A model generated the notes under the pieces. That model saw nothing but the letters and a program-made list of their open reading frames with translations. It was not told where the DNA came from and did not search any database. A DNA stretch of 64,000 nt. Source: Shewanella woodyi ATCC 51908. GTDB lineage: Bacteria; Pseudomonadota; Gammaproteobacteria; Enterobacterales; Shewanellaceae. Position numbers and translations under genes: made by a program. Positions 33,615-58,736 of this stretch are shown one piece after another (the first letter of the stretch is position 1; every line of letters begins with the position of its first letter). The stretch spans positions 3,658,001 to 3,722,000 of the forward strand of contig NC_010506.1 in assembly GCF_000019525.1 (NCBI RefSeq). The letters are read 5' to 3'.

Positions 33615-33679
33615 ATTGTCTGTTAACAATCGAGTGCTCAAGACTTTAAACCAAGAGCTCAAGGCTGTAAATCAAGAGC

Positions 33680-34213
33680 TCAGGACTTAACCTTAACTCT
33701 GTTATTTGTATCTCGGCTACGTTTAATCAGTTCATCATTGGCATCTAAACAGCCTAATTTAGCAAGCCTGTCATAGAGAAGAACATTGACCGATGCCGCC
33801 AAGTTCATACAGCCAACAGTGGGAACATAAACCACAGCGTCTGCCTTATCGATTATCTCTTGACCTATGGTGCCATCTTCTGGGCCAAACACATATAGGG
33901 CTTTGTCGGGATGAACAAACTCAGGTAGTGAAATCGCACCAACCACAAGATCAACACAAACAAGCTTCACATCATCCACTTTCGCTGCAAGTAAGCTCTC
34001 CACGGCTTGAAGCGGAATATGCTGCCCTGCTCTTTTGGTATCTGTGTTGTATTGGGCATTACCATTTCTAGCTGCCAACTCATATCGTTTACCGGTATAG
34101 AGTACGGCATCAGCCTGATAACACCCAGCAGCGCGCATAATACCACCAACATTCGTTGGACTCTTAGGATTAACAAGCCCTATTTGCGCTAGATATTTAC
34201 TGTCCGCACTCAC
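33680..34213 (-). CDS. TrmH/SpoU-family RNA 2'-O-methyltransferase
   Basis: A 177-aa SPOUT-fold enzyme. It shows the N-terminal motif NPKSPTNVGGIMRAAG, the central VFGPEDGTIGQEIID and the knot-forming VYVPTVGCMNLAASVNVLLYD. It should transfer a methyl group from SAM to an RNA ribose; whether the target is tRNA or rRNA is not clear. It starts with GTG and overlaps the yfcL stop by four bases (GTGA), so the two are translationally coupled. Confidence 0.88.
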   Translation of the reverse strand: MSADSKYLAQIGLVNPKSPTNVGGIMRAAGCYQADAVLYTGKRYELAARNGNAQYNTDTKRAGQHIPLQAVESLLAAKVDDVKLVCVDLVVGAISLPEFVHPDKALYVFGPEDGTIGQEIIDKADAVVYVPTVGCMNLAASVNVLLYDRLAKLGCLDANDELIKRSRDTNNRVKVKS

Positions 34214-40673: not shown

Positions 40674-43463
40674 TTGAGTGAATCTTTACAAATAATCAAA
40701 AGCCCCAATGATCATCGTCACTATCAATACCTTGCATTAGACAATAACTTGTCGGTATTACTGGTCGAAGATAAATTGGCTAACCAAGCTGCCGCCTCTA
40801 TGGCTGTCAATGTCGGCCATTTTGACGATCCTGTTTCGCGTCCAGGTATGGCGCACTTTTTAGAGCATATGCTTTTTTTAGGTACAGAAAAGTTTCCAGA
40901 CTCAGGCGAGTACCACGCCTTTATTAATCAGCACGGTGGCAGTAATAACGCGTGGACAGGAACAGAGCAAACTAATTTTTTCTTCAGTATCGATGCCGAT
41001 GTATTCGAAGAATCATTGGATAGATTCAGCCAATTTTTTATTGCGCCGCTCTTCAACCAAGATCTGGTCGACAGGGAGCGACATGCCATCGAGTCTGAAT
41101 TTAGTCTTAAGCTAAAAGATGATATTCGCAGAACATACCAAGTCCAGAAGGAAACAGTCAATCCGAGTCACCCTTTCTCAAAGTTTTCAGTTGGAAATCT
41201 AGAAACTTTAAGCGGTGAGCAGTCTATATTAAGAGAGGAGTTGCTCGAGTTTTACCACAATCACTATAGCGCTAACTTGATGACCCTCTGTTTAGTCGCG
41301 CCTCTTCCTCTTCAAGAACTTGAAGTGCTGGCCAAACATTATTTTAGCGAGATTAACGATCATCAATTAACCAAGCAATACCCAAATGTACCTATTTACC
41401 AAGCAGAGCAGCTGCAAACGCGCATTAATATTATCCCAGTAAAAGATCAAAAAAGGGTTGCTATCACCTTCTCTCTTCCTGAGATAGATCCTTACTATAA
41501 ACATAAGCCTCTCACCTTTATCAGCCACCTTTTAGGTTATGAAGGCCGCGGGAGCCTGCTCTCCTACCTTAAAGATCATGGCTATGCGGTAAACTTGTCC
41601 GCTGGCGGTGGCGTCAATGGATATAACTTCAAAGATTACAACATCAGTATTCAATTAACAGAGAAAGGCGTTATCGAACTCGACACCGTTGTTGAGTGTG
41701 CCTTTGAATATATTGAACTGATAAAAACTCAAGGGATACAAGACTGGCGATACCAAGAGAGAGCTAACCTTCTCAAATTGGCATTTAAATATCAGGAGCA
41801 GATTAAGCCACTGGATTTGGCCAGCCACCTTAGTATAAATATGCACCATTATGATGTTGAAGATCTGGTATTTGGTGACTATAAGATGGAGGGCCTCAAT
41901 GTCACTGAAACCCTGATTTTGCTTAACATGATGACACCATCCAATATGCGAATTCAGATAATATCGTCTGAAATGGAGAGCAACAAACAAGCAGCTTGGT
42001 ACCATACACCCTATCAGATACAGCCCTTAGAAAAAGAGCAGCTCGAACGTTGGAGTCAGGTAAACATTCGCCCAGAGTTTGTTCTTCCTAAGCAAAACCC
42101 CTTTATCATCTCAGACTCAGTCGCAAGGGAAGAGAAAAGTCAAAACAAGGTGCCAGTCATTGTTTCTCAAGAAAATGGTTACCGAATTTGGCATAGAAAG
42201 GATGATGAGTTTAACGTGCCAAAAGGCCATATGTACCTCTCTATGGACTCGATTAAGGCCGCTTCATCCCCGAGAAACGCTGCGCTCACTCGGTTATACG
42301 TTGAGATGCTACTCGATTACCTGACTGAATATACTTATCAAGCTGAGGTGGCTGGCCTTAGTTATAATATTTACCCTCATCAAGGTGGTATCACACTGCA
42401 CCTCACCGGCTTTACCGGTAAACAAGAGGAGTTATTGGCTCTGCTTATTGAAAAAGCCAGAGAACGTAATTTTACTCAAGATAGGTTTAAGCTAATTAAA
42501 CGCCAAATTTTAAGGACTTGGTACAATCAAACCCGCGCTAAACCTATCTCGCAAATATTTACCAGTTTGACAGTATCATTACAAAAACGAAGCTATGAGC
42601 CCTCTCGAATGGCAGAGGAGCTTGAAAACATCAGCTTAGATGATCTCCATAACCATGTTAGAAGTTTTTATGAAAAAATTCATCTTGAAGGTTTAGTTTA
42701 TGGCGACTGGCTAGTCAGTGAAGTACAGACCTTAGGGAAACGACTGGAGCATATCTTATCTCTCGTTTCCTCTCCAAGCAGAGAGTCAGAGAGAGAGTTA
42801 GTAAACTTATCAGGTTACGGCACCTTAATGCGTGAGTTAATGGTCACACATCAGGACAGCAGTATCATAGTCTACTACCAAGCTGATGAATCTACTCCTG
42901 AAATGATGGCCTTGTTCAGTTTATTAAACCACACTATGTCATCGACATTTTTTCATGAGCTAAGAACCAAAAAACAGCTTGGCTATATGGTAGGAACTGG
43001 TTACCTACCTTTAAACCGATATCCTGGCATGATCTTCTATATTCAATCCCCCACATCTGGTCCACTTCAGCTACTAGAAGCCATTGACGAATTTATTGCT
43101 GATTTTAACTACGCAATCTTGCAGATAACAAATGAGCAGTGGGAGTTAACAAAACAGGGACTAATTAATCAAGTCATGGAGCATGATCCTAACTTGAAAA
43201 CACGAGGACAGAGGTATTGGTCCAGTATTGGAAATAAAGATTATGACTTTAATCAAAGAGAACTGGTTGTTGCTGAAATAGAGAAGCTGACTCGTTCAGA
43301 TCTGATTAAGTTTATGATGAAAAAGATGCGTAGTAAGCATAGCGATAGATTAGTTCTATTTACAACGGGGGAAAATCATCATCAACTTGAACGTCTAACA
43401 TCTGACAATATGATAACTGACCTTCGCAGTTTTAAAGAAAAAGCAGCAAAGTTTAACTACTAA
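40674..43463 (+). CDS. M16 (insulinase/pitrilysin-family) zinc protease
   Basis: A 929-aa peptidase with the inverted zinc motif in ARPG-type context: RPGMAHFLEHMLFLGTEKFPDSGEYHAFINQHGGSNNAWTGTEQTNFFF (HFLEH near residue 66, with the distal glutamate about 75 residues later). The second inactive half and the C-terminal substrate-gating part are present (KKQLGYMVGTGYLPLNRYPGMIFYIQSP). No signal peptide is seen, so unlike E. coli PtrA it may stay in the cytoplasm. It starts at TTG, with GGAG eight bases upstream. Degrades medium-length peptides by family analogy. Confidence 0.9.
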   Translation: MSESLQIIKSPNDHRHYQYLALDNNLSVLLVEDKLANQAAASMAVNVGHFDDPVSRPGMAHFLEHMLFLGTEKFPDSGEYHAFINQHGGSNNAWTGTEQTNFFFSIDADVFEESLDRFSQFFIAPLFNQDLVDRERHAIESEFSLKLKDDIRRTYQVQKETVNPSHPFSKFSVGNLETLSGEQSILREELLEFYHNHYSANLMTLCLVAPLPLQELEVLAKHYFSEINDHQLTKQYPNVPIYQAEQLQTRINIIPVKDQKRVAITFSLPEIDPYYKHKPLTFISHLLGYEGRGSLLSYLKDHGYAVNLSAGGGVNGYNFKDYNISIQLTEKGVIELDTVVECAFEYIELIKTQGIQDWRYQERANLLKLAFKYQEQIKPLDLASHLSINMHHYDVEDLVFGDYKMEGLNVTETLILLNMMTPSNMRIQIISSEMESNKQAAWYHTPYQIQPLEKEQLERWSQVNIRPEFVLPKQNPFIISDSVAREEKSQNKVPVIVSQENGYRIWHRKDDEFNVPKGHMYLSMDSIKAASSPRNAALTRLYVEMLLDYLTEYTYQAEVAGLSYNIYPHQGGITLHLTGFTGKQEELLALLIEKARERNFTQDRFKLIKRQILRTWYNQTRAKPISQIFTSLTVSLQKRSYEPSRMAEELENISLDDLHNHVRSFYEKIHLEGLVYGDWLVSEVQTLGKRLEHILSLVSSPSRESERELVNLSGYGTLMRELMVTHQDSSIIVYYQADESTPEMMALFSLLNHTMSSTFFHELRTKKQLGYMVGTGYLPLNRYPGMIFYIQSPTSGPLQLLEAIDEFIADFNYAILQITNEQWELTKQGLINQVMEHDPNLKTRGQRYWSSIGNKDYDFNQRELVVAEIEKLTRSDLIKFMMKKMRSKHSDRLVLFTTGENHHQLERLTSDNMITDLRSFKEKAAKFNY

Positions 43464-43870: not shown

Positions 43871-46800
43871 ATGATGCCTAACGCGCTTATGAAAATAATT
43901 ACAACATTACTGTTGGCCCTCTGTATTTTCGGCCAATCGGTTGCTGTAGAGTCTAACTCTATAACTAAAGAGAAAGTTATAAAGCCTATTCACACCCCAA
44001 AACTTCTAAAAATAAAAAGCTACGGTGTATCGGAAGGATTGTCTCAAAGTGCAGTCACTTCACTCGTTGAAGATGCTGATGGTTTTGCTTGGATTGGCAC
44101 TTTGAATGGACTCAATAGATTCGATGGTGATGAATTCAAACAATATTTTTCTTTCAAAGAAAAGAACTCTCTACCAAGTTCCTTTATTAGAAGCCTATAC
44201 TTCTCGGAAAAATATGGTCTATTCATTGGGACTGATAAAGGATTAACTGTTTATAACAAAACTGATGATGATTTTACTCTAATTAACAACCTACTTTCTC
44301 AACAAATATGGAATATAACTGAACACAATGACCAAATTATAGTTGGAACAGAGAACGAAATAATTTATTTAAACAATAAACTAGAATATGTAAAATCTAT
44401 AGATGGTGATTTCGGAGGTATTAAAAAAATTATTTTCTCCAACAACTTAATATATGTAAGGAATTACATGGGGGATATAATAGCAATTGACAACATTGAA
44501 AAAAAAGTAATATCCGACAATACTAACGACATTGTAGATGCGCACGGAAAAGTAATAATAATAAAGCCAGATGGTGTTTTTGAAGTATTAGGTAAAAAAG
44601 TAAGAAAAATAAATAGCAATCACTACTCCAACCTTACAGCACTACCCAATAAATATATATCAATAAAAGAACAAAACATCTATTCCATTAGTACAGACTT
44701 CTCTCAAACTAGTATTGACAGATTGGATATAAAGAACATAGAAGTTACTAACCCTCACGTAATAAGAGGAAAAAAAACAAACTATATTACAACTCATAAC
44801 ATAGGATTATTAGTTAATTACGATTATAACAATACAATATCAACAATAGATATAGAAGACAAAAACATTTGGTCTATAGCTAAAGATCTAAAATCAAATT
44901 TATTTATTGCTACTGGTTCAAAATATATAAACTTATATAGTAAATCTAATAAGATAGTTGCTAAGTACAACACTGAGGCAGAGGGACCAAAACAAGTTAC
45001 AACACTAAAAGATAGTTTATTCATAACGACAACGGAAGGGTTACTGTCAATTGACAAATATAGTAAAAATAGAGAAGTGCTAAGTCCCGGCCCATTCTTT
45101 GCCATTCATAAATCACAATTTGATGAAGCAGTTTATGCTGGTACAACTGACGGAAAAGTTATTGAGGTTTCTGAAAATAAACAAATTATTATGGAACACA
45201 GTGTAGATATTGGAAACCCAGTTTTCGATATTAAAAAATCTAGCACATCTCTTTGGGTTGCGACGCAAGGTGGACTTTTTAAAATTCAAGATGGAAAAAT
45301 TGAAAATATTTTTAACAAAGGTATCGTCATTAGTATTTCTCTATCGACAAACAATGAAGATATTTATTTTGGAACTGAGACGTCACTATTAAAATTCACA
45401 AGCAAAAACAAAAAAATAGAAACTATCTACTCAAACAATAGGCCAATATACTCTATTGTCACTGACACCGATTACATATACTCCACTTCGATAAAAGAGC
45501 TAGTAGTCACACAAATAGTTGATAATAAAACGATTTCCCTTTCAGATACTTATGGAAGTCAAGATGAGTATAATGCACAATCAATTTTAGACTTTAACAA
45601 CACAATATACATCGGAGGTATTTCAGGTATTAGTGCGATGTCAAAAGTAGTTATTGATAAGATATTCTCATCATCAAAAGCACCTAAAGCCAATATCAAT
45701 GAGCTATTAGTTTTTAATATCCCCGTTAACATAGGAAGCTCGATTTTAAAAGAAAATATTTCCTCGACAAAAAAAATAATATTAAAATATTCTGACTACC
45801 CTTTTACATTAAAATTTAACAGCCCTGGCAATGGTAGTGAAAAAATTGATTATATATATCAAATGCAGGGACTATCTGAATCTTGGATCCACTCTGAGGG
45901 TATAAACTCAGCGACTTATACAAACCTCTCTTCTGGTGAGTACACCTTTAATATTTATGCTTTTGATCCCTTGACTCATAACCAAGGAGAAATAAAGAGC
46001 CTAAATATATTAATAACCCCTCCATGGTGGTTATCTAAGCAAGCAAAATTGGTTTACTTCATTATCACTCTCATTATTTCAGCTGTGATAGTTCAAGGTA
46101 TACTTCGCCGCCGTGAAGTTCAGAAAAAGATAGCTAAATCAGAGGAGAGGCTAAAGCTTTCTCTCTGGGGAAGTGGCGATGAGATGTGGGATTGGGATAT
46201 CGAAACAGGACAGATATACCGCTCTAATATCTGGGGCTCTCTCGAATTCCCAAAAGATGGACAAAGGTCTGGCGATGCCGATGAGGAGAGTAATATTCAC
46301 CCCATGGATCAAGACCGTGTCACTAAGGCGCTGAACAGCCATTTCGATGGTAACAGTGATCATTTTGAAGCAGCATACCGAGTAAAGGGGAAGTCTGATG
46401 AATGGGTGTGGATCTTAGACAGAGCAAAAATAGTGGAACGAGATGAGAAAGACAACCCTCTGCGTATGACAGGCACTATCAAAAATATTAATAACTTTAA
46501 AAATGCTGAGGAGCAACTTCGTCTGTTTGAACGTGCGATTGCCAATATCTCCGAAGGTATGTTTATTTTAGACAATAACTTTATCTTTGTAGAGGTCAAC
46601 GAAGCCTGTTGTGAACTAAGCCTTATCCCTAAAGAGCAGTTTATTGGCTCACTTTTTAAGTTTAACCTCTACCCTGACAGCTATTCAGAGCAGATACGTT
46701 CAATTCTTCATCAGCAAGGTAGCTGGAGCAATGATGTTGAATCAGCAAAAGGAGACGGCACTAGTTTCCTCATGGAGCTAACGGTTGATGCCATCTATGA

Positions 46801-48196
46801 CGAATTAGGACAACTATCTCATTATGTCGGTGTATTTTCCGATATATCTCGCCGTAAACTGCAAGAGGAGGAGCTAAGGAAGCTTACCAATAATGATCTT
46901 TTGACTAACCTGCCAAACCGCTCAAGTTTAATGGTGACCTTAGGCAACTTGGTAAAGAGAGATACTCATCACACCCTTATGGTTCTAGATCTTGATAACT
47001 TCAAAAAGATCAATGACTCCATGGGACATCAGATCGGTGATGAACTACTTATAAAAGTAGCTAAACGTATCGAAGCCGCTGTCCCCTACCACACAAGTAT
47101 CTATCGCTTGGGTGGCGATGAATTTGCGATATTAGTTGATAATAATCCTGACATTGGCTCCAGTGCAGTGATCGCAAATAATGTTATAGATGCTTTCGCC
47201 AGCCCGTTTGAGCTCACCTCAGAAAAAGTCGTAGTGGGCCTTAGTATCGGTATTGTGCTCTATCCTGAGGATGATCAAAACGAACAAGCATTGCTACGCA
47301 AAGCAGATATTGCGATGTATCACGCTAAATCAGGTGGAGGCAACCGCTACCAATTCTACTCAGAATCGATTAACCGAAATGCAATAAGGCAACTGGAAGT
47401 TGAGAACCTTATTCGTGAAGGTTTACGTGATGATCTGTTTGAAGTCTATTACCAGCCTAAAATAGCACTAAAAACAGGAAGAATGGCGGGAATGGAAGCC
47501 TTAGTCAGGCTAAATCATCCTGAACACGGATTAATTCCACCCAGCGAGTTTATTCCTTTAGCTGAAGAAAACGGCTTAATTGTCGATATCGGTGATTTAG
47601 TGATGAGAAAGGCATGCTTTGCTACTCAAAAATGGCGAAGTTTAGGCTTGTTTGATGGTCGAGTCGCTGTCAATTTATCATCATACCAATTTGCCCTCCC
47701 CGATCTTCAGCAGCGTATTGAGTCAATATTACGACTCACTCAGCTACCAGCAGCGAATTTAGAGTTAGAGATCACTGAAGGAACTGTAATTAAGCAACCC
47801 GAGAAAGCCATTAAGGTGATGCAACAGCTATCAAAAATGGGAGTCAGTTTAGCTTTAGATGATTTTGGTACAGGCTACTCTTCACTCTCATACCTAAAAC
47901 GTTTTCCAATTCATACGCTGAAAATTGACAAAGCATTTGTCGATGATATCGATAAATCTGACAGAGATCTGAAGATGGTCGACTCAATTATTACTATCGC
48001 TCACAACATGGGACTATCGGTTGTCGGTGAAGGGGTTGAAGATGCCTCTCAATTGAGCATACTAAAAGCACTAAAATGTGAAGAGATACAAGGATTTCTC
48101 TTTAGTAAAGCGGTCACAGAAACTCAGTTCAGTGAGCTACTAGAGAAGAATTTTATTGAACCTGACATAGTACAAAAAAACACAAAAGCAATCTAG
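43871..48196 (+). CDS. Propeller-sensor PAS-GGDEF-EAL c-di-GMP signalling protein
   Basis: A 1441-aa inner-membrane protein. Signal peptide; a large periplasmic two-component-regulator-type beta-propeller (residues about 40-640; for example DGFAWIGTLNGLNRFDG, TSLWVATQGGLFKI); a Y_Y_Y domain (about 645-715); one membrane helix near 722-745; two PAS domains (about 755-1000); GGDEF (RLGGDEFAILVD near 1078); EAL (MEALVRL near 1205). The EAL catalytic set is complete (EALVRL, ITEGTVI, LDDFGTGYSS, LKIDKAF, GEGVED, EEIQGFLFSKA), so phosphodiesterase activity is likely. GGDEF is canonical but lacks an RxxD inhibition site. The propeller-coding half is far more AT-rich than the 3' half. Confidence 0.92.
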   Translation: MMPNALMKIITTLLLALCIFGQSVAVESNSITKEKVIKPIHTPKLLKIKSYGVSEGLSQSAVTSLVEDADGFAWIGTLNGLNRFDGDEFKQYFSFKEKNSLPSSFIRSLYFSEKYGLFIGTDKGLTVYNKTDDDFTLINNLLSQQIWNITEHNDQIIVGTENEIIYLNNKLEYVKSIDGDFGGIKKIIFSNNLIYVRNYMGDIIAIDNIEKKVISDNTNDIVDAHGKVIIIKPDGVFEVLGKKVRKINSNHYSNLTALPNKYISIKEQNIYSISTDFSQTSIDRLDIKNIEVTNPHVIRGKKTNYITTHNIGLLVNYDYNNTISTIDIEDKNIWSIAKDLKSNLFIATGSKYINLYSKSNKIVAKYNTEAEGPKQVTTLKDSLFITTTEGLLSIDKYSKNREVLSPGPFFAIHKSQFDEAVYAGTTDGKVIEVSENKQIIMEHSVDIGNPVFDIKKSSTSLWVATQGGLFKIQDGKIENIFNKGIVISISLSTNNEDIYFGTETSLLKFTSKNKKIETIYSNNRPIYSIVTDTDYIYSTSIKELVVTQIVDNKTISLSDTYGSQDEYNAQSILDFNNTIYIGGISGISAMSKVVIDKIFSSSKAPKANINELLVFNIPVNIGSSILKENISSTKKIILKYSDYPFTLKFNSPGNGSEKIDYIYQMQGLSESWIHSEGINSATYTNLSSGEYTFNIYAFDPLTHNQGEIKSLNILITPPWWLSKQAKLVYFIITLIISAVIVQGILRRREVQKKIAKSEERLKLSLWGSGDEMWDWDIETGQIYRSNIWGSLEFPKDGQRSGDADEESNIHPMDQDRVTKALNSHFDGNSDHFEAAYRVKGKSDEWVWILDRAKIVERDEKDNPLRMTGTIKNINNFKNAEEQLRLFERAIANISEGMFILDNNFIFVEVNEACCELSLIPKEQFIGSLFKFNLYPDSYSEQIRSILHQQGSWSNDVESAKGDGTSFLMELTVDAIYDELGQLSHYVGVFSDISRRKLQEEELRKLTNNDLLTNLPNRSSLMVTLGNLVKRDTHHTLMVLDLDNFKKINDSMGHQIGDELLIKVAKRIEAAVPYHTSIYRLGGDEFAILVDNNPDIGSSAVIANNVIDAFASPFELTSEKVVVGLSIGIVLYPEDDQNEQALLRKADIAMYHAKSGGGNRYQFYSESINRNAIRQLEVENLIREGLRDDLFEVYYQPKIALKTGRMAGMEALVRLNHPEHGLIPPSEFIPLAEENGLIVDIGDLVMRKACFATQKWRSLGLFDGRVAVNLSSYQFALPDLQQRIESILRLTQLPAANLELEITEGTVIKQPEKAIKVMQQLSKMGVSLALDDFGTGYSSLSYLKRFPIHTLKIDKAFVDDIDKSDRDLKMVDSIITIAHNMGLSVVGEGVEDASQLSILKALKCEEIQGFLFSKAVTETQFSELLEKNFIEPDIVQKNTKAI

Positions 48197-48343
48197 TTCG
48201 CAATAAAAAACCAACAAAAAACACAAGATACTGAAAACATGGCATAACAACTGCAACATTTATCTCAAGTGTCAAAAATAATGACAGCCTTATAAATTCG
48301 AAACCATCGCTTGATGGTTTCAATAACTTGAGAGAAGAATAAC
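48197..48343. promoter_or_regulatory. Leader region of the tandem-repeat exported protein
   Basis: Holds a TATAAA element near 48291 and a perfect hairpin at 48300-48321 (GAAACCATC / GATGGTTTC, loop GCTT), followed closely by a purine-rich ribosome site (GAGAGAAG) before the ATG at 48344. The hairpin lacks a T run, so it may be a 5' leader structure. Confidence 0.45.
48300..48321 (+). repeat. 9-bp perfect inverted repeat before the tandem-repeat gene
   Basis: GAAACCATC and GATGGTTTC pair perfectly around GCTT, ending 22 bases before the start codon. It could protect the mRNA end or gate translation, or be a remnant terminator of the upstream EAL gene. Confidence 0.6.
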
Positions 48344-48796
48344 ATGATTAAAATACTAGCTACCTCTATCGCCCTTGCATTAACAGCTCCAGCTATGGCA
48401 TTTGAAATTCCTGCAACAGATTCTAATCAGTTACTTCTATCTAATGTCCCCCATGTGAAATTTAAGCCGCTGCAAACGGCTAACGTACCTCATGTGAAGT
48501 TTAAACCATTACAAACGGCTAACGTACCTCATGTGAAGTTTAAACCATTACAAACGGCTAACGTGCCTCATGTAAAGTTTAAACCACTACAAACTGCTAA
48601 CGTGCCTCATGTGAAGTTTAAACCACTACAAACTGCTAACGTGCCTCATGTGAAGTTCAAACCGCTGCAAACAGCTAACGTGCCTCATGTGAAGTTCAAA
48701 CCGCTGCAAACAGCTAACGTGCCTCATGTGAAGTTTAAACCACTACAAACCGCTGGCACACCAAATGTTAGATTTATAAATTCAGTAACAGCTTAG
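48344..48796 (+). CDS. Exported tandem-repeat protein (8 x NVPHVKFKPLQTA)
   Basis: A 150-aa protein I do not recognise. Residues 1-19 are a clear signal peptide (LATSIALALTAPAMA, cut before FE). After a short spacer come eight perfect copies of the 13-residue unit NVPHVKFKPLQTA (residues 34-137) and a ninth, degenerate unit (GTPNVRFINSVTA). The repeat is basic, has one His, one Phe and two Lys per unit, and no cysteine. It has no LPXTG, lipobox or anchor. A good ribosome site precedes the ATG, and a second small ORF with a strong ribosome site follows 17 bases later. It could be a polycationic secreted or surface peptide or a precursor cut into identical peptides; both are guesses. Confidence 0.8.
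   Translation: MIKILATSIALALTAPAMAFEIPATDSNQLLLSNVPHVKFKPLQTANVPHVKFKPLQTANVPHVKFKPLQTANVPHVKFKPLQTANVPHVKFKPLQTANVPHVKFKPLQTANVPHVKFKPLQTANVPHVKFKPLQTAGTPNVRFINSVTA
48443..48793 (+). repeat. 39-bp tandem repeat array (8 units plus one degenerate)
   Basis: Eight in-frame 39-base units (48443-48754) and a ninth divergent one (48755-48793). The eight encode the same 13 residues, but the DNA differs at third positions (for example GTA/GTG/GTC for Val, TTA/CTA/CTG for Leu, GCT preceded by ACG/ACT/ACA/ACC). Neighbouring units 2-3 and 6-7 are identical in DNA, consistent with recent duplication. Confidence 0.9.
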
Positions 48797-48813: not shown

Positions 48814-48933
48814 ATGTTTGATTCAATCATGAAAGCTCTTGGTCTTATTAACAAACCTGAGCGTAGAAGAGTACAACTTCCTGAAGGATTAAATCACCTA
48901 GAGGTGATCCCAGCTAAAGTGTGGTGGCACTAG
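48814..48933 (+). CDS. 39-aa ORF coupled to the tandem-repeat gene
   Basis: Short ORF with a very good ribosome site (AAGGAG, seven bases before ATG), just 17 bases after the repeat gene stop and followed by a terminator at 48988. The product begins MFDSIMKALGLINKPERRRV and ends EVIPAKVWWH. It starts with an amphipathic helix, has a basic middle and an aromatic end, and has no signal peptide. I know no family for it. Its ribosome site and operon position argue it is translated. It may be a partner, chaperone or regulator of the repeat protein. Confidence 0.65.
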   Translation: MFDSIMKALGLINKPERRRVQLPEGLNHLEVIPAKVWWH

Positions 48934-49045: not shown

Positions 49046-49252
49046 TTAGCACTGGAACTGACTAGAGCCCTTTACTGAGGCTTTTTTCATAGCGAATCGT
49101 TTATAAGTATTTAACAGAGGATAACCCGCAGGTCCCAATAATAAGCCAACAACAGCCCAACGCTTCACCCCAAGCCCAGCCTGAAAAGCTAGTTTTCCCA
49201 TAACATAACCCGACAACGGCAGCACAGTGACGATGAAAATTGATAGCAACAT
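49046..49252 (-). CDS. Small two-helix membrane protein, unknown
   Basis: A 68-aa protein with two membrane helices (LLSIFIVTVLPLSGYVMG and WAVVGLLLGPAGYPLL) and a basic tail. The glycine/proline-rich second helix resembles small conserved marine gammaproteobacterial membrane proteins of unknown role. It is convergent with the repeat-protein operon and 249 bases downstream of fadJ. Confidence 0.6.
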   Translation of the reverse strand: MLLSIFIVTVLPLSGYVMGKLAFQAGLGVKRWAVVGLLLGPAGYPLLNTYKRFAMKKASVKGSSQFQC

Positions 49253-56783: not shown

Positions 56784-58736
56784 ATGTTGCACTTCTTACG
56801 TCCAGAGTGGTTTTTAGCTCTGCTCCCTTTGCTTATAATTCTGATATTAATCTGGAAAGCTGAGCGAGTAAACTCCACTTGGAGCCGCTATATCTCTCCT
56901 CATTTAGCTAACTTTTTAGTCTCAAAAAGTCAGCAAGTTAAACGCAGCAACCTTAGCTATTTAGCAGCGTCTTGGTTTATCGCCGTACTTGCCCTTTCAG
57001 GGCCCGCCATCTCAAAACAGTCACTGCCAGTATTTGAAGCCGCACAGGGACGAGTGATTCTGATGGATATGTCCCTCTCTATGTACGCTACCGATCAGGC
57101 CCCCAACAGACTGACACAAGCCAAGTTTAAAGCCACCGATCTGATTGAAGCATTAACTGAGGGGGAAACTGGACTTATCGCCTATGCTGGCGATGCGTTT
57201 ACCATTAGCCCGCTTACACGGGATCGAGCAACACTGCTGAATCTACTGCCAACACTCTCACCACAAATAATGCCTGTTAGAGGCTCTAACCTGCCTGCTG
57301 CACTTGAGCAAGGAAAAAGTTTACTGGTGCAAGGTGGACATATTCAAGGCGACATTATTTTGCTCGCAGATGGTGTCAGCCCAAGTCAGATGAATGCAGC
57401 TAAAAAAGTATTAAAGGGAACTCAATACCGCCTTTCAATCTTAGTATTTGGCAGTGAACAAGGCTCACCAATTCGTCTTCCTGACGGTCAGTTGCTACGT
57501 GATAATAGCAACCAAGTGGTTGTTGTCAAAACCGATTACTCGTTGCTCAATGAATTAGTTCAAAACGCCGATGGTGTACTTGTCCCCTTTCGCAGCGATG
57601 GCGCAGATCTTGAGCAGTTAACTCAGTGGCTAAACACCAGCAGTGATGACACTAAAGCCACCGATCTTAATGGCGAAGCTTGGCAAGATGCTGGCCCCTA
57701 TATCGCACTATTATTGCTACTGCCGGTTCTACTTAGCTTCAGACATGGATTAATTGCATCACTACTTGTAATGACCATCTACCAGCCCTCCCCCGTCATG
57801 GCTTCGACTTGGGATGACCTATGGAAGACTAAAAACCAACAGGGGATGCAAGCCTATCAAGCTGAAGATTACGGCAATGCATCGACGACTTTTACCGATC
57901 CTCAATGGCAAGCCAGTGCACACTATAAAGCAGGTAAATATGATGAAGCGCTGAGCTTGTTTGAACAAGATAGCAGTGCATCAGGGCTCTATAACCAAGG
58001 CAATAGCTTAATGCAGAAAGGTGAATTTGAGCAGGCGGCGCAGCGTTACAGCAAAGCACTGGAACTCGACCCCAAGCTTGAAGGGGCTAATGAGAACCTT
58101 GAACTTGCCAAAAAATTAGAGCAAGAAAAACGAGAAAGCCCTGAAAAATCTGATAATAGTGATAATGGTGATAATGGTGACAAATCAGAGCAAGGTGAGG
58201 AAGGCGATCAACAAGATAAGCAATCCGATCAGAGTGACTCAGAACAAGGTAAAGATCAGGAGCAAAAGCAACAAGGTCAAAACGGTGAGCAGGACAATCA
58301 AGAGCAGCAAGGCGATCAACAACAAAACTCAGAGCAGTCTGACTCACAGCACAATGAGCAGCAATCATCGAAAGATAATGATGCACAGATGCAAGCCGAC
58401 CCTAACGAGCAGCAGCAAACCGCTGATGACAATGATAAAAATCAACAAGCTCAAAGCAATGATGAGAAAGCTGCAGCTAAAGATGAGGAGAGTAAAGAGG
58501 AGCAAACGGCTCAAGCTCAAGCAATGCAGCAGGAACAAAATGAGCAACAAGGTGAACAACAACAAACCCAAGCGGCACAAGCGGTAACAGGCCCTGAAGA
58601 ACTACCACCAGAGATGGAGCGCGCAATGCGCGCCTTAGTCGATGATCCTCAAGTTTTACTCAGAAACAAGATGCAACTTGAATATCAAAAGCGTCGTATG
58701 CAAGGCCTAGCATCTAAGGAGCAGGAACAGTGGTAA
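56784..58736 (+). CDS. BatB/BatC-type VWA-TPR fusion with long Gln/Asp-rich tail
   Basis: A 650-aa protein. Two N-terminal helices (FLALLPLLIILILIWKA; LSYLAASWFIAVLAL) precede a VWA domain (VILMDMSLSMYATDQ, IILLADGVSPSQ). A further membrane segment (ALLLLLPVLLSFRHGLIASLLVM) leads to a TPR-type part (QGNSLMQKGEFEQAAQRYSKALELDPKLEGANENLELAK). About 150 residues of Gln/Asp/Glu/Ser/Asn-rich, probably disordered sequence follow (residues about 455-610), then a conserved end (PEELPPEMERAMRALVDDPQVLLRNKM). This fuses BatB and BatC of other bacteria. Confidence 0.9.
   Translation: MLHFLRPEWFLALLPLLIILILIWKAERVNSTWSRYISPHLANFLVSKSQQVKRSNLSYLAASWFIAVLALSGPAISKQSLPVFEAAQGRVILMDMSLSMYATDQAPNRLTQAKFKATDLIEALTEGETGLIAYAGDAFTISPLTRDRATLLNLLPTLSPQIMPVRGSNLPAALEQGKSLLVQGGHIQGDIILLADGVSPSQMNAAKKVLKGTQYRLSILVFGSEQGSPIRLPDGQLLRDNSNQVVVVKTDYSLLNELVQNADGVLVPFRSDGADLEQLTQWLNTSSDDTKATDLNGEAWQDAGPYIALLLLLPVLLSFRHGLIASLLVMTIYQPSPVMASTWDDLWKTKNQQGMQAYQAEDYGNASTTFTDPQWQASAHYKAGKYDEALSLFEQDSSASGLYNQGNSLMQKGEFEQAAQRYSKALELDPKLEGANENLELAKKLEQEKRESPEKSDNSDNGDNGDKSEQGEEGDQQDKQSDQSDSEQGKDQEQKQQGQNGEQDNQEQQGDQQQNSEQSDSQHNEQQSSKDNDAQMQADPNEQQQTADDNDKNQQAQSNDEKAAAKDEESKEEQTAQAQAMQQEQNEQQGEQQQTQAAQAVTGPEELPPEMERAMRALVDDPQVLLRNKMQLEYQKRRMQGLASKEQEQW

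Follow-up and report, generated by a model that had tools for sequence, protein, structure and literature searches.

Why would a bacterium encode an exported protein made of one 13-residue unit repeated eight times without change, and what would read it? The gene lies in a stretch of 64,000 nucleotides of Shewanella woodyi ATCC 51908 (NC_010506.1, positions 3,658,001 to 3,722,000), called the window below. Using comparative sequence analysis and prediction, on which the whole study is based, we found that the gene belongs to a cassette present throughout Shewanella, and we consider it probable that the adjacent upstream sensor has the repeat protein as its cognate, self-encoded ligand, the pair being kept as co-inherited specificity alleles.

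The repeat protein and its cassette

An earlier note on this DNA had described the repeat gene correctly and had missed its companions, the sensor gene, the promoter and the ORF of 39 amino acids, which are listed here in window coordinates:

40674-43460, + strand: M16 (insulinase-type) peptidase gene, directly upstream of the sensor
43871..48196, + strand: sensor gene, 1441 aa, with an ectodomain, one TM segment and a cytoplasmic PAS-PAS-GGDEF-EAL half
about 43952-46018, + strand: sensor ectodomain, a periplasmic double beta-propeller plus Y_Y_Y, HTCS-like
about 46022-46106, + strand: sensor TM segment, placed by eye
48240..48255, + strand: sigma54-type promoter TGGCATAACAACTGCA, with GG and GC at standard spacing
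48344..48796, + strand: repeat protein gene, 150 aa by ORF translation, predicted exported
48344-48400, + strand: signal peptide of the repeat protein, its end (AMA) judged by eye
48443-48793, + strand: repeat array, eight exact units and a degenerate ninth
48814..48933, + strand: gene of the conserved 39-aa peptide MFDSIMKALGLINKPERRRVQLPEGLNHLEVIPAKVWWH, 17 nt after the repeat gene

A signal peptide is recognisable by eye, as claimed, and both translation and TRF (8.1 copies x 39 bp, 92% match, at 48441-48754) confirm the array: residues 34-137 of the translated ORF are eight exact copies of NVPHVKFKPLQTA, after which comes GTPNVRFINSVTA. As had been noticed, the DNA copies vary at third codon positions around an invariant peptide, with pS = 0.503 and pN = 0 among the window's eight units. 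Across 100 related arrays pS exceeds pN in 99, and the pooled pN/pS is 0.070. This low non-synonymous variation between units supports the earlier suggestion of selection on the peptide itself, and recent duplication as the sole cause of unit identity was rejected on the same comparison.

The impression that no named family fits the protein also holds. Searches of NCBIfam, PADLOC and PDB sequences gave nothing relevant, the one PDB match (E 0.25) being judged chance. The lone Pfam match above cut-off, to the plant-type C2H2 zinc finger zf-C2H2_STOP2_3rd (E 1.4e-6, 28.6 bits, cut-off 27), is taken as a sum over repeats, as no stretch passes alone and the best spans 13 of 35 profile positions; an MTPAP-like match below cut-off, and two below cut-off for the relative P0002, are dismissed as repeat sum or chance. 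A homologue search returned only two database relatives, both named Shewanella, and one started from an outside-genus repeat protein returned none. AF2 gave no confident fold and no usable model (pLDDT 42.6), and nothing was found in support of the idea of surface-binding repeats. The leader between promoter and repeat gene holds a perfect inverted repeat, GAAACCATC-GCTT-GATGGTTTC (48300-48321), a possible 5' UTR hairpin, and further short tandem repeats lie at 33636-33688 (21 bp x 2.5) and 58151-58180 (9 bp x 3.3) of the window.

The order membrane sensor, sigma54-type promoter, repeat gene, short conserved peptide gene is found genus-wide. Our locus set holds one locus from each of 119 genus genomes and six from outside the genus (125 in all, nine taken from earlier loci); the 15 that lie at a contig edge without an upstream ORF were left out of the synteny counts. 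In 103 of the 104 genus loci with upstream DNA, and in all six outside loci, a homologue of the cytoplasmic half of the sensor ends within 2 kb of the peptide on its upstream side, the sole exception among the 104 being L211, where repeat and peptide genes stand without an adjacent sensor. By tblastn the ectodomain is recognisable in 107 of 110 loci (not in L157, at a contig end, L191 or L211), and frameshifts split the sensor in L182, L191, L168, L204, L119 and L216. The signature residues of bifunctional c-di-GMP enzymes are intact, GG[DE]EF being present in 87 of 91 sensors and E[AV]L[VIL]R and DDFG[TA]G in all 91. The best solved relatives of the ectodomain (BT4663) bear titles of heparin/heparan sulphate sensors and not of peptide sensors, which counts against the ligand reading.

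Within 200 nt upstream of the repeat gene, TGGCAY-N7-GC occurs in 104 of 105 loci, compared with 0.116 loci in shuffles, 0 of 103 in downstream controls and 1 of 100 in front of the sensor gene. The one locus without it, L215, has a near-match, and L092, outside the 105, is without the exact pattern. At E <= 0.01 the 39-aa peptide has a match in 119 of the 129 genus genomes, and its invariants L-P-x-G, A and W-W hold also in the five outside-genus rows aligned. A pattern scan for it returned 50 named loci, all titled Shewanella. It occurred in 32 of 345 genomes drawn from the order (26 Shewanella and six of two other families) and, among 369 drawn from the class, only in the window's own genome. 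The six outside-genus loci preserve the order sensor, short ORF, peptide, and the sensors of L092 and L093 likewise carry Reg_prop, PAS, GGDEF and EAL. Two diverged tandem copies of the peptide gene are seen in 16 of the 125 loci (L128, L129, L134, L136, L138-L140, L142, L145, L148, L154, L167, L046, L052, L096 and L097).

The window places the cassette between methyltransferase, Smr, histidine phosphatase and M16 peptidase genes upstream and fadJ/fadI-type genes downstream, and no exporter gene was found beside it there. All 93 loci in which the sensor is complete and the DNA extends far enough upstream, including three from outside the genus, have M16 gene, sensor and cassette in succession on one strand. 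Of 15 entries searched among the named or outside loci, 12 extend far enough downstream, and all 12 have fadJ/fadI there, again also outside the genus. Given this fixed gene order on both sides, a mobile element was rejected. Silent-cassette antigenic variation was rejected as well, the window's own genome (5,935,403 bp, one contig) having one array and a chance-level hit (E 0.139). The same genome has Reg_prop matches at E <= 0.001 in two ORFs only, a threshold that weaker propellers may escape, and PADLOC defence models gave 0 families for three cassette proteins. A hydrophobic ORF of 68 aa on the - strand (49046-49252), with no significant Pfam match, lies between cassette and fadJ/fadI-type genes and has relatives in the same place in some loci.

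Unit variation and its link to the sensor ectodomain

The repeat protein matches 117 of 129 Shewanella genomes at E <= 1, seven of these weakly (best E > 0.001). Of 100 comparable arrays, 90 have a period of 13 and the others one of 9 (three arrays), 12 (three), 14 (one), 15 (two) or 17 (one), and the number of core motifs runs from 3 to 34 (median 11.5). These cores are heptapeptides, mostly x-x-P-x-[VI]-[KR]-[F/V/L/Y/W], spaced by short linkers. Pro3 and Ala13 are the modal residues in every one of the 88 13-mer arrays; positions 2, 4, 5 and 7 vary between species (0.54-0.86) and hardly within arrays (0.007-0.029; ratio 0.014-0.034), and positions 9-12 are looser (within/between ratio 0.10-0.23). 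Since positions 2, 4, 5 and 7 behave in this way, each array carries one word, specific to species or allele. The reported invariance thus stands within an array, whereas there is no universal unit: the word tracks the neighbouring sensor ectodomain, as detailed below.

As to the reading frame in relatives, an open middle ORF was taken from 105 of the 110 loci with upstream DNA. The five left out are L125 and L148 (stop or frameshift inside the array), L092 (a middle ORF of only 43 aa) and L182 and L211 (skipped); within the 105, L214 has a frame shift close to its end, and the ORFs of L119 and L173 include masked bases. Such breaks are either real or assembly errors. L203 has a single unit, and in L092 and L093, outside the genus, the middle gene is an ORF of 40-43 aa with a hydrophobic start and zero repeats, perhaps the ancestral state.

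These arrays could belong to a structural or adhesive protein, a fibre, solenoid or matrix array uniform for stacking, which the sensor merely regulates. Uniform tandem units behind a signal peptide could serve homotypic stacking, and the sensor does hold both a GGDEF and an EAL domain, but we regard this as improbable: copy number and period range widely (3 to 34 cores, 9 to 17 residues), one member of the genus has just one unit and two relatives have none, the low AF2 confidence adds weak evidence, and stacking does not predict that the unit tracks the sensor ectodomain across a conserved 2-kb core.

Alternatively, a multi-copy precursor might be cut to free 13-mers in the manner of alpha-factor, an unlikely route which would be compatible with the ligand reading. 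Consistent with it are the signal peptide, the exact units, the modal Ala that closes 13-mer units in 88 of 88 arrays and the Ala that ends 96 of 100 genus repeat proteins. The peptide might in principle be a substrate of the M16 peptidase encoded just upstream of the sensor; this enzyme shows no signal peptide by eye, however, and its gene belongs to a wider conserved gene order, so that nearness to the cassette proves little. Dibasic or other obvious cleavage sites are absent, and four outside-genus relatives end at the core (VRF, IRY, IRF, IRI), not in Ala.

The relation between unit and sensor was measured in 86 species, with sensors shorter than 1380 aa, arrays without readable units, L215 (its unit in another register) and four outside-genus sensors excluded. 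These 86 sensors differ on average by 66% in the ectodomain and 19% in the cytoplasmic half. Near-identical cytoplasmic halves come in two kinds, either with matching units and similar ectodomains or with differing units and strongly differing ectodomains (mostly 38-72%). For example, L110 and L117, with units GYPHVKF and GFPHVKV, are 0.000 apart in the cytoplasmic half and 0.562 in the ectodomain, and L151/L153 (0.007 and 0.670) and L200/L201 (0.006 and 0.713) also differ in unit. Pairs sharing a unit are L109/L117 (0.004 and 0.238) and the window's sensor with L112 (0.003 and 0.042).

Below a cytoplasmic distance of 0.02 there are 31 pairs, in 13 clusters and 34 species. The 11 with identical units have ectodomain distances of 0.003-0.337, and the 20 with at least one unit mismatch 0.378-0.717, except one at 0.033 (L181/L183, two mismatches at 3.3%, whose arrays mix the same two unit types). 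The rank correlation of unit with ectodomain distance is 0.855, a value that the within-cluster null (mean 0.541) reached in 0 of 5000 permutations, clusters, thresholds and example pairs having been chosen after a first look at the data; with cytoplasmic distance it is 0.042. At a threshold of 0.04 (67 pairs) the two rho values are 0.617 (0/5000) and 0.473 (4/1000), and at 0.06 (116 pairs) 0.646 (0/5000) and 0.122. Ectodomains in the 29 disjoint nearest pairs have a median distance of 0.06 where the unit is shared (n = 6) and 0.56 where it differs (n = 23; p = 2.5e-5); in these pairs the rho of unit distance is 0.657 for the ectodomain and 0.387 (p 0.038) for the cytoplasmic half.

Moreover, where the nearest ectodomain lies at a distance below 0.35, it gives the 7-residue core to within one mismatch in 35 of 35 cases, compared with 19 of 34 for a nearest cytoplasmic half at a distance below 0.02; over all 86, mean core mismatches are 1.34 by nearest ectodomain, 2.28 by nearest cytoplasm and 3.58 at random. 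On this basis the sensors P0013 and P0029 would be expected beside an AAPNVRF-like and a GHP[YA]VKF-like unit, respectively. The relation blurs with distance: a partial Mantel test over the 86 species does not separate ectodomain from cytoplasm (ectodomain given cytoplasm 0.167, cytoplasm given ectodomain 0.205), perhaps because distances are saturated, and six of 39 pairs with identical 7-residue cores have ectodomains more than 50% different. The 39-aa peptide gave no positive rho with the unit; it tracks the conserved core of the locus and not the alleles, and is therefore more likely a partner of the cytoplasmic half, with which it would perhaps work.

Nucleotide identity profiles of 13 hand-picked pairs, eight of them with differing units, reveal two divergent islands, ectodomain and array, flanking a conserved core of about 2 kb. 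In L151/L153 identity is high upstream (0.97), low over sensor codons 1-700 (0.48-0.64) and high again from codon 801 (0.94-0.98) and in the gap (0.98); the mature repeat protein is at 0.59, the peptide gene at 0.98 and the downstream flank at 0.96. Across the eight differing-unit pairs, core (codons 801-1400), intergenic gap and peptide gene stay at 0.79-1.00, 0.75-0.98 and 0.90-0.99, and sensor codons 101-600 fall to 0.42-0.61. Flanks are less alike in some pairs (upstream down to 0.27 in L089/L090; downstream 0.63-0.66 in L163/L164 and L110/L114). Owing to differences in copy number, identity over the array is a poor guide, reaching only 0.67-0.88 even in same-unit pairs. By BLASTP, seven differing-unit ectodomain pairs retain 30-44% identity over nearly their full length, so that their divergence is not caused by misalignment.

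Trees give the same picture. In 13 species of one group, chosen for mixed alleles, the ectodomain tree unites the GHP-type units in a single clade (100/100, one change), and the cytoplasmic tree rejects that clade (five changes; AU p 7e-32, to be read, like the permutation values, in the light of choices made after a first look); on whole-set trees, the 59 core words take 59 changes with the ectodomain and 64 with the cytoplasmic half. These results bear on passive hitchhiking, in which a recombination hot spot would let unit and ectodomain travel together as neighbours. Unit and ectodomain lie about 2.2 kb apart, and the high or saturated ectodomain dS of many close pairs points to allelic replacement. 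Nevertheless, the core that sits between the islands stays conserved, together with gap and peptide gene, in all eight differing-unit pairs, and has a history separate from that of the ectodomain, with which the unit goes. Simple neighbour linkage thus fails to explain the association, and we hold hitchhiking to be very improbable. In one pair, L177/L186, the ectodomains are 2.4% apart (dS 0.17) and the cytoplasmic halves have a dS of 1.25, which looks like horizontal transfer of an allele.

Two paralogous propeller sensors of the same genomes served as controls. The ectodomain of a propeller histidine kinase without the cassette differs by 2.6% in G052/G040 (cassette sensor 56%), 4.2% in G082/G016 (61%) and 9.4% in G128/G008 (71%), and by 2.6-13.8% over the 13 pairs listed. 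In a second paralogue, a propeller GGDEF-EAL sensor, the difference is 8.8% in G114/G084 (cassette sensor 65%), 17.5% in G114/G113 (66%) and 17.5% in G084/G113 (46%), and 4.9-17.9% over 13 listed pairs with cytoplasmic distance below 0.06. Thus, hyperdivergence belongs to the cassette sensor, and not to propellers or to these genomes in general.

Ectodomain types within species and a model of the locus

Divergent ectodomains also coexist under one species name. We compared 37 proteins of 11 species names with at least two entries each, from the best 120 of 1123 matches; the comparison covers sensor proteins only, and the species labels are the depositors'. Among the matches listed, S. colwelliana has four ectodomain types (50-67% apart, cytoplasmic halves <=0.9%; one sequence partial), S. 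marisflavi three (55-66%, <=0.4%), S. glacialipiscicola three (56-65%, 0.9-2.2%), and S. cyperi and S. insulae two each (52-53%), with cytoplasmic halves at least 99.1% identical in S. colwelliana, S. marisflavi, S. cyperi and S. insulae. In the same matches S. oncorhynchi and S. mangrovisoli each have types about 60% apart plus closer ones, the pairs from S. waksmanii and S. fidelis differ by 33-34% in the ectodomain, two S. putrefaciens are 62% apart (cytoplasmic halves 8.4%), and ten S. baltica sequences are of one type (<=1.9% difference).

This pattern suggests diversifying or balancing selection on ectodomain types, and the simplest account of the data would be that the propeller ectodomain reads the exported heptapeptide cores and that matched pairs are under selection. 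As a sub-case of the ligand reading, the repeat protein might stay in the cell as a purely periplasmic regulator, its fit to the sensor maintained by compensatory drift and with no role in communication. We regard this as possible, though on the unlikely side. A Sec signal peptide alone reaches the periplasm, where the ectodomain lies, and a look at the window's neighbouring genes revealed no exporter; drift, however, is a poor fit to ectodomains 50-67% apart in one species beside cytoplasmic halves at least 99.1% identical (best 120 of 1123 matches), and to ectodomain types common to several species.

In the ligand reading, sigma54 RNA polymerase would transcribe the repeat gene and the 39-mer together, and Sec would export the repeat protein. 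Its heptapeptide cores would bind the periplasmic double propeller, and binding would alter c-di-GMP synthesis or breakdown through the GGDEF-EAL half. Ectodomain and unit would stay paired as specificity alleles, so that several ligand-receptor pairs would circulate within and between Shewanella species. The comparisons establish the gene order, the promoter motif, the uniform unit of each array and the joint divergence of ectodomain and unit around a conserved core; from these we infer direct binding, the sign of the response, the part played by the 39-mer, and any passage of the repeat protein beyond the outer membrane or action from cell to cell.

The persistence of several types in one species resembles pherotype polymorphism. 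A further, tentative proposal, to which we give somewhat less than even weight, is that the cassette is a Gram-negative self-recognition (pherotype) locus: released allele-specific repeat peptides would be read by the matching propeller of same-type neighbours and switch a c-di-GMP-controlled group behaviour, many alleles being held by balancing selection as two linked islands around a homogenised core, as in self-incompatibility loci.

Taken together, the comparisons suggest a strain-specific peptide-receptor pair controlling c-di-GMP, previously undescribed; no description of the locus was found in the open-access literature searched, mostly by titles and the starts of abstracts. If the ligand reading is true, a class of orphan periplasmic c-di-GMP sensors gains a genetically encoded ligand, and does so in a genus to which a standard laboratory species belongs. 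It would also allow direct tests of what is sensed by HTCS-type propellers outside Bacteroidetes, of how specificity shifts jointly in a receptor and its tandem-repeat ligand, and of whether Shewanella strains recognise kin.

Comparison with known systems

The predicted sigma54 control of an exported protein has a likeness in a Gram-negative floc-forming bacterium, where an exported PEP-CTERM protein is reported to be RpoN-dependent (PMC9850573). In the window's repeat protein, by contrast, no PEP-CTERM signal was noticed by eye. We know of no repeat relation between the two proteins.

With HTCS sensors such as BT4663 the cassette sensor shares the double propeller plus Y_Y_Y ectodomain. It differs from them in having no single-chain histidine kinase, receiver and AraC regulator, its output being PAS-PAS-GGDEF-EAL, in a hyperpolymorphic ectodomain tied to a self-encoded repeat protein, and in its neighbours in the window, an M16 peptidase and fatty-acid oxidation genes.

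Yeast alpha-factor-type precursors combine a signal peptide with tandem identical short peptides that differ between species and are paired with a receptor. The cassette protein likewise has a signal peptide and identical tandem units that differ between species, with receptor pairing proposed here, but it belongs to another domain of life, has no known processing sites and would act on an unrelated receptor.

In the ComQXPA system of Bacillus, the ligand gene lies beside the receptor gene, the C-terminus of ComP is conserved and several types exist among relatives. The Shewanella locus is alike in the adjacency of the sensor (103 of 104 genus and 6 of 6 outside loci) to a gene whose product is probably its ligand, and in a sensor polymorphic in its sensing part only, linked to unit type. 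In Bacillus, ComP is polymorphic in its N-terminal part and pre-ComX in its C-terminal part (PMC5385187). In contrast to ComQXPA, the cassette is without a ComQ-type prenyl-transferase beside the putative ligand gene, as judged from the window's neighbours, and its sensor has a GGDEF and EAL output instead of a histidine kinase. It further differs in having a tandem array in place of one peptide, a propeller ectodomain, a Gram-negative host and an extra conserved short peptide. The cassette and ComQXPA thus share no parts, and the ligand reading, if true, would add a new polymorphic peptide-receptor pair built from parts unlike the Gram-positive ones.
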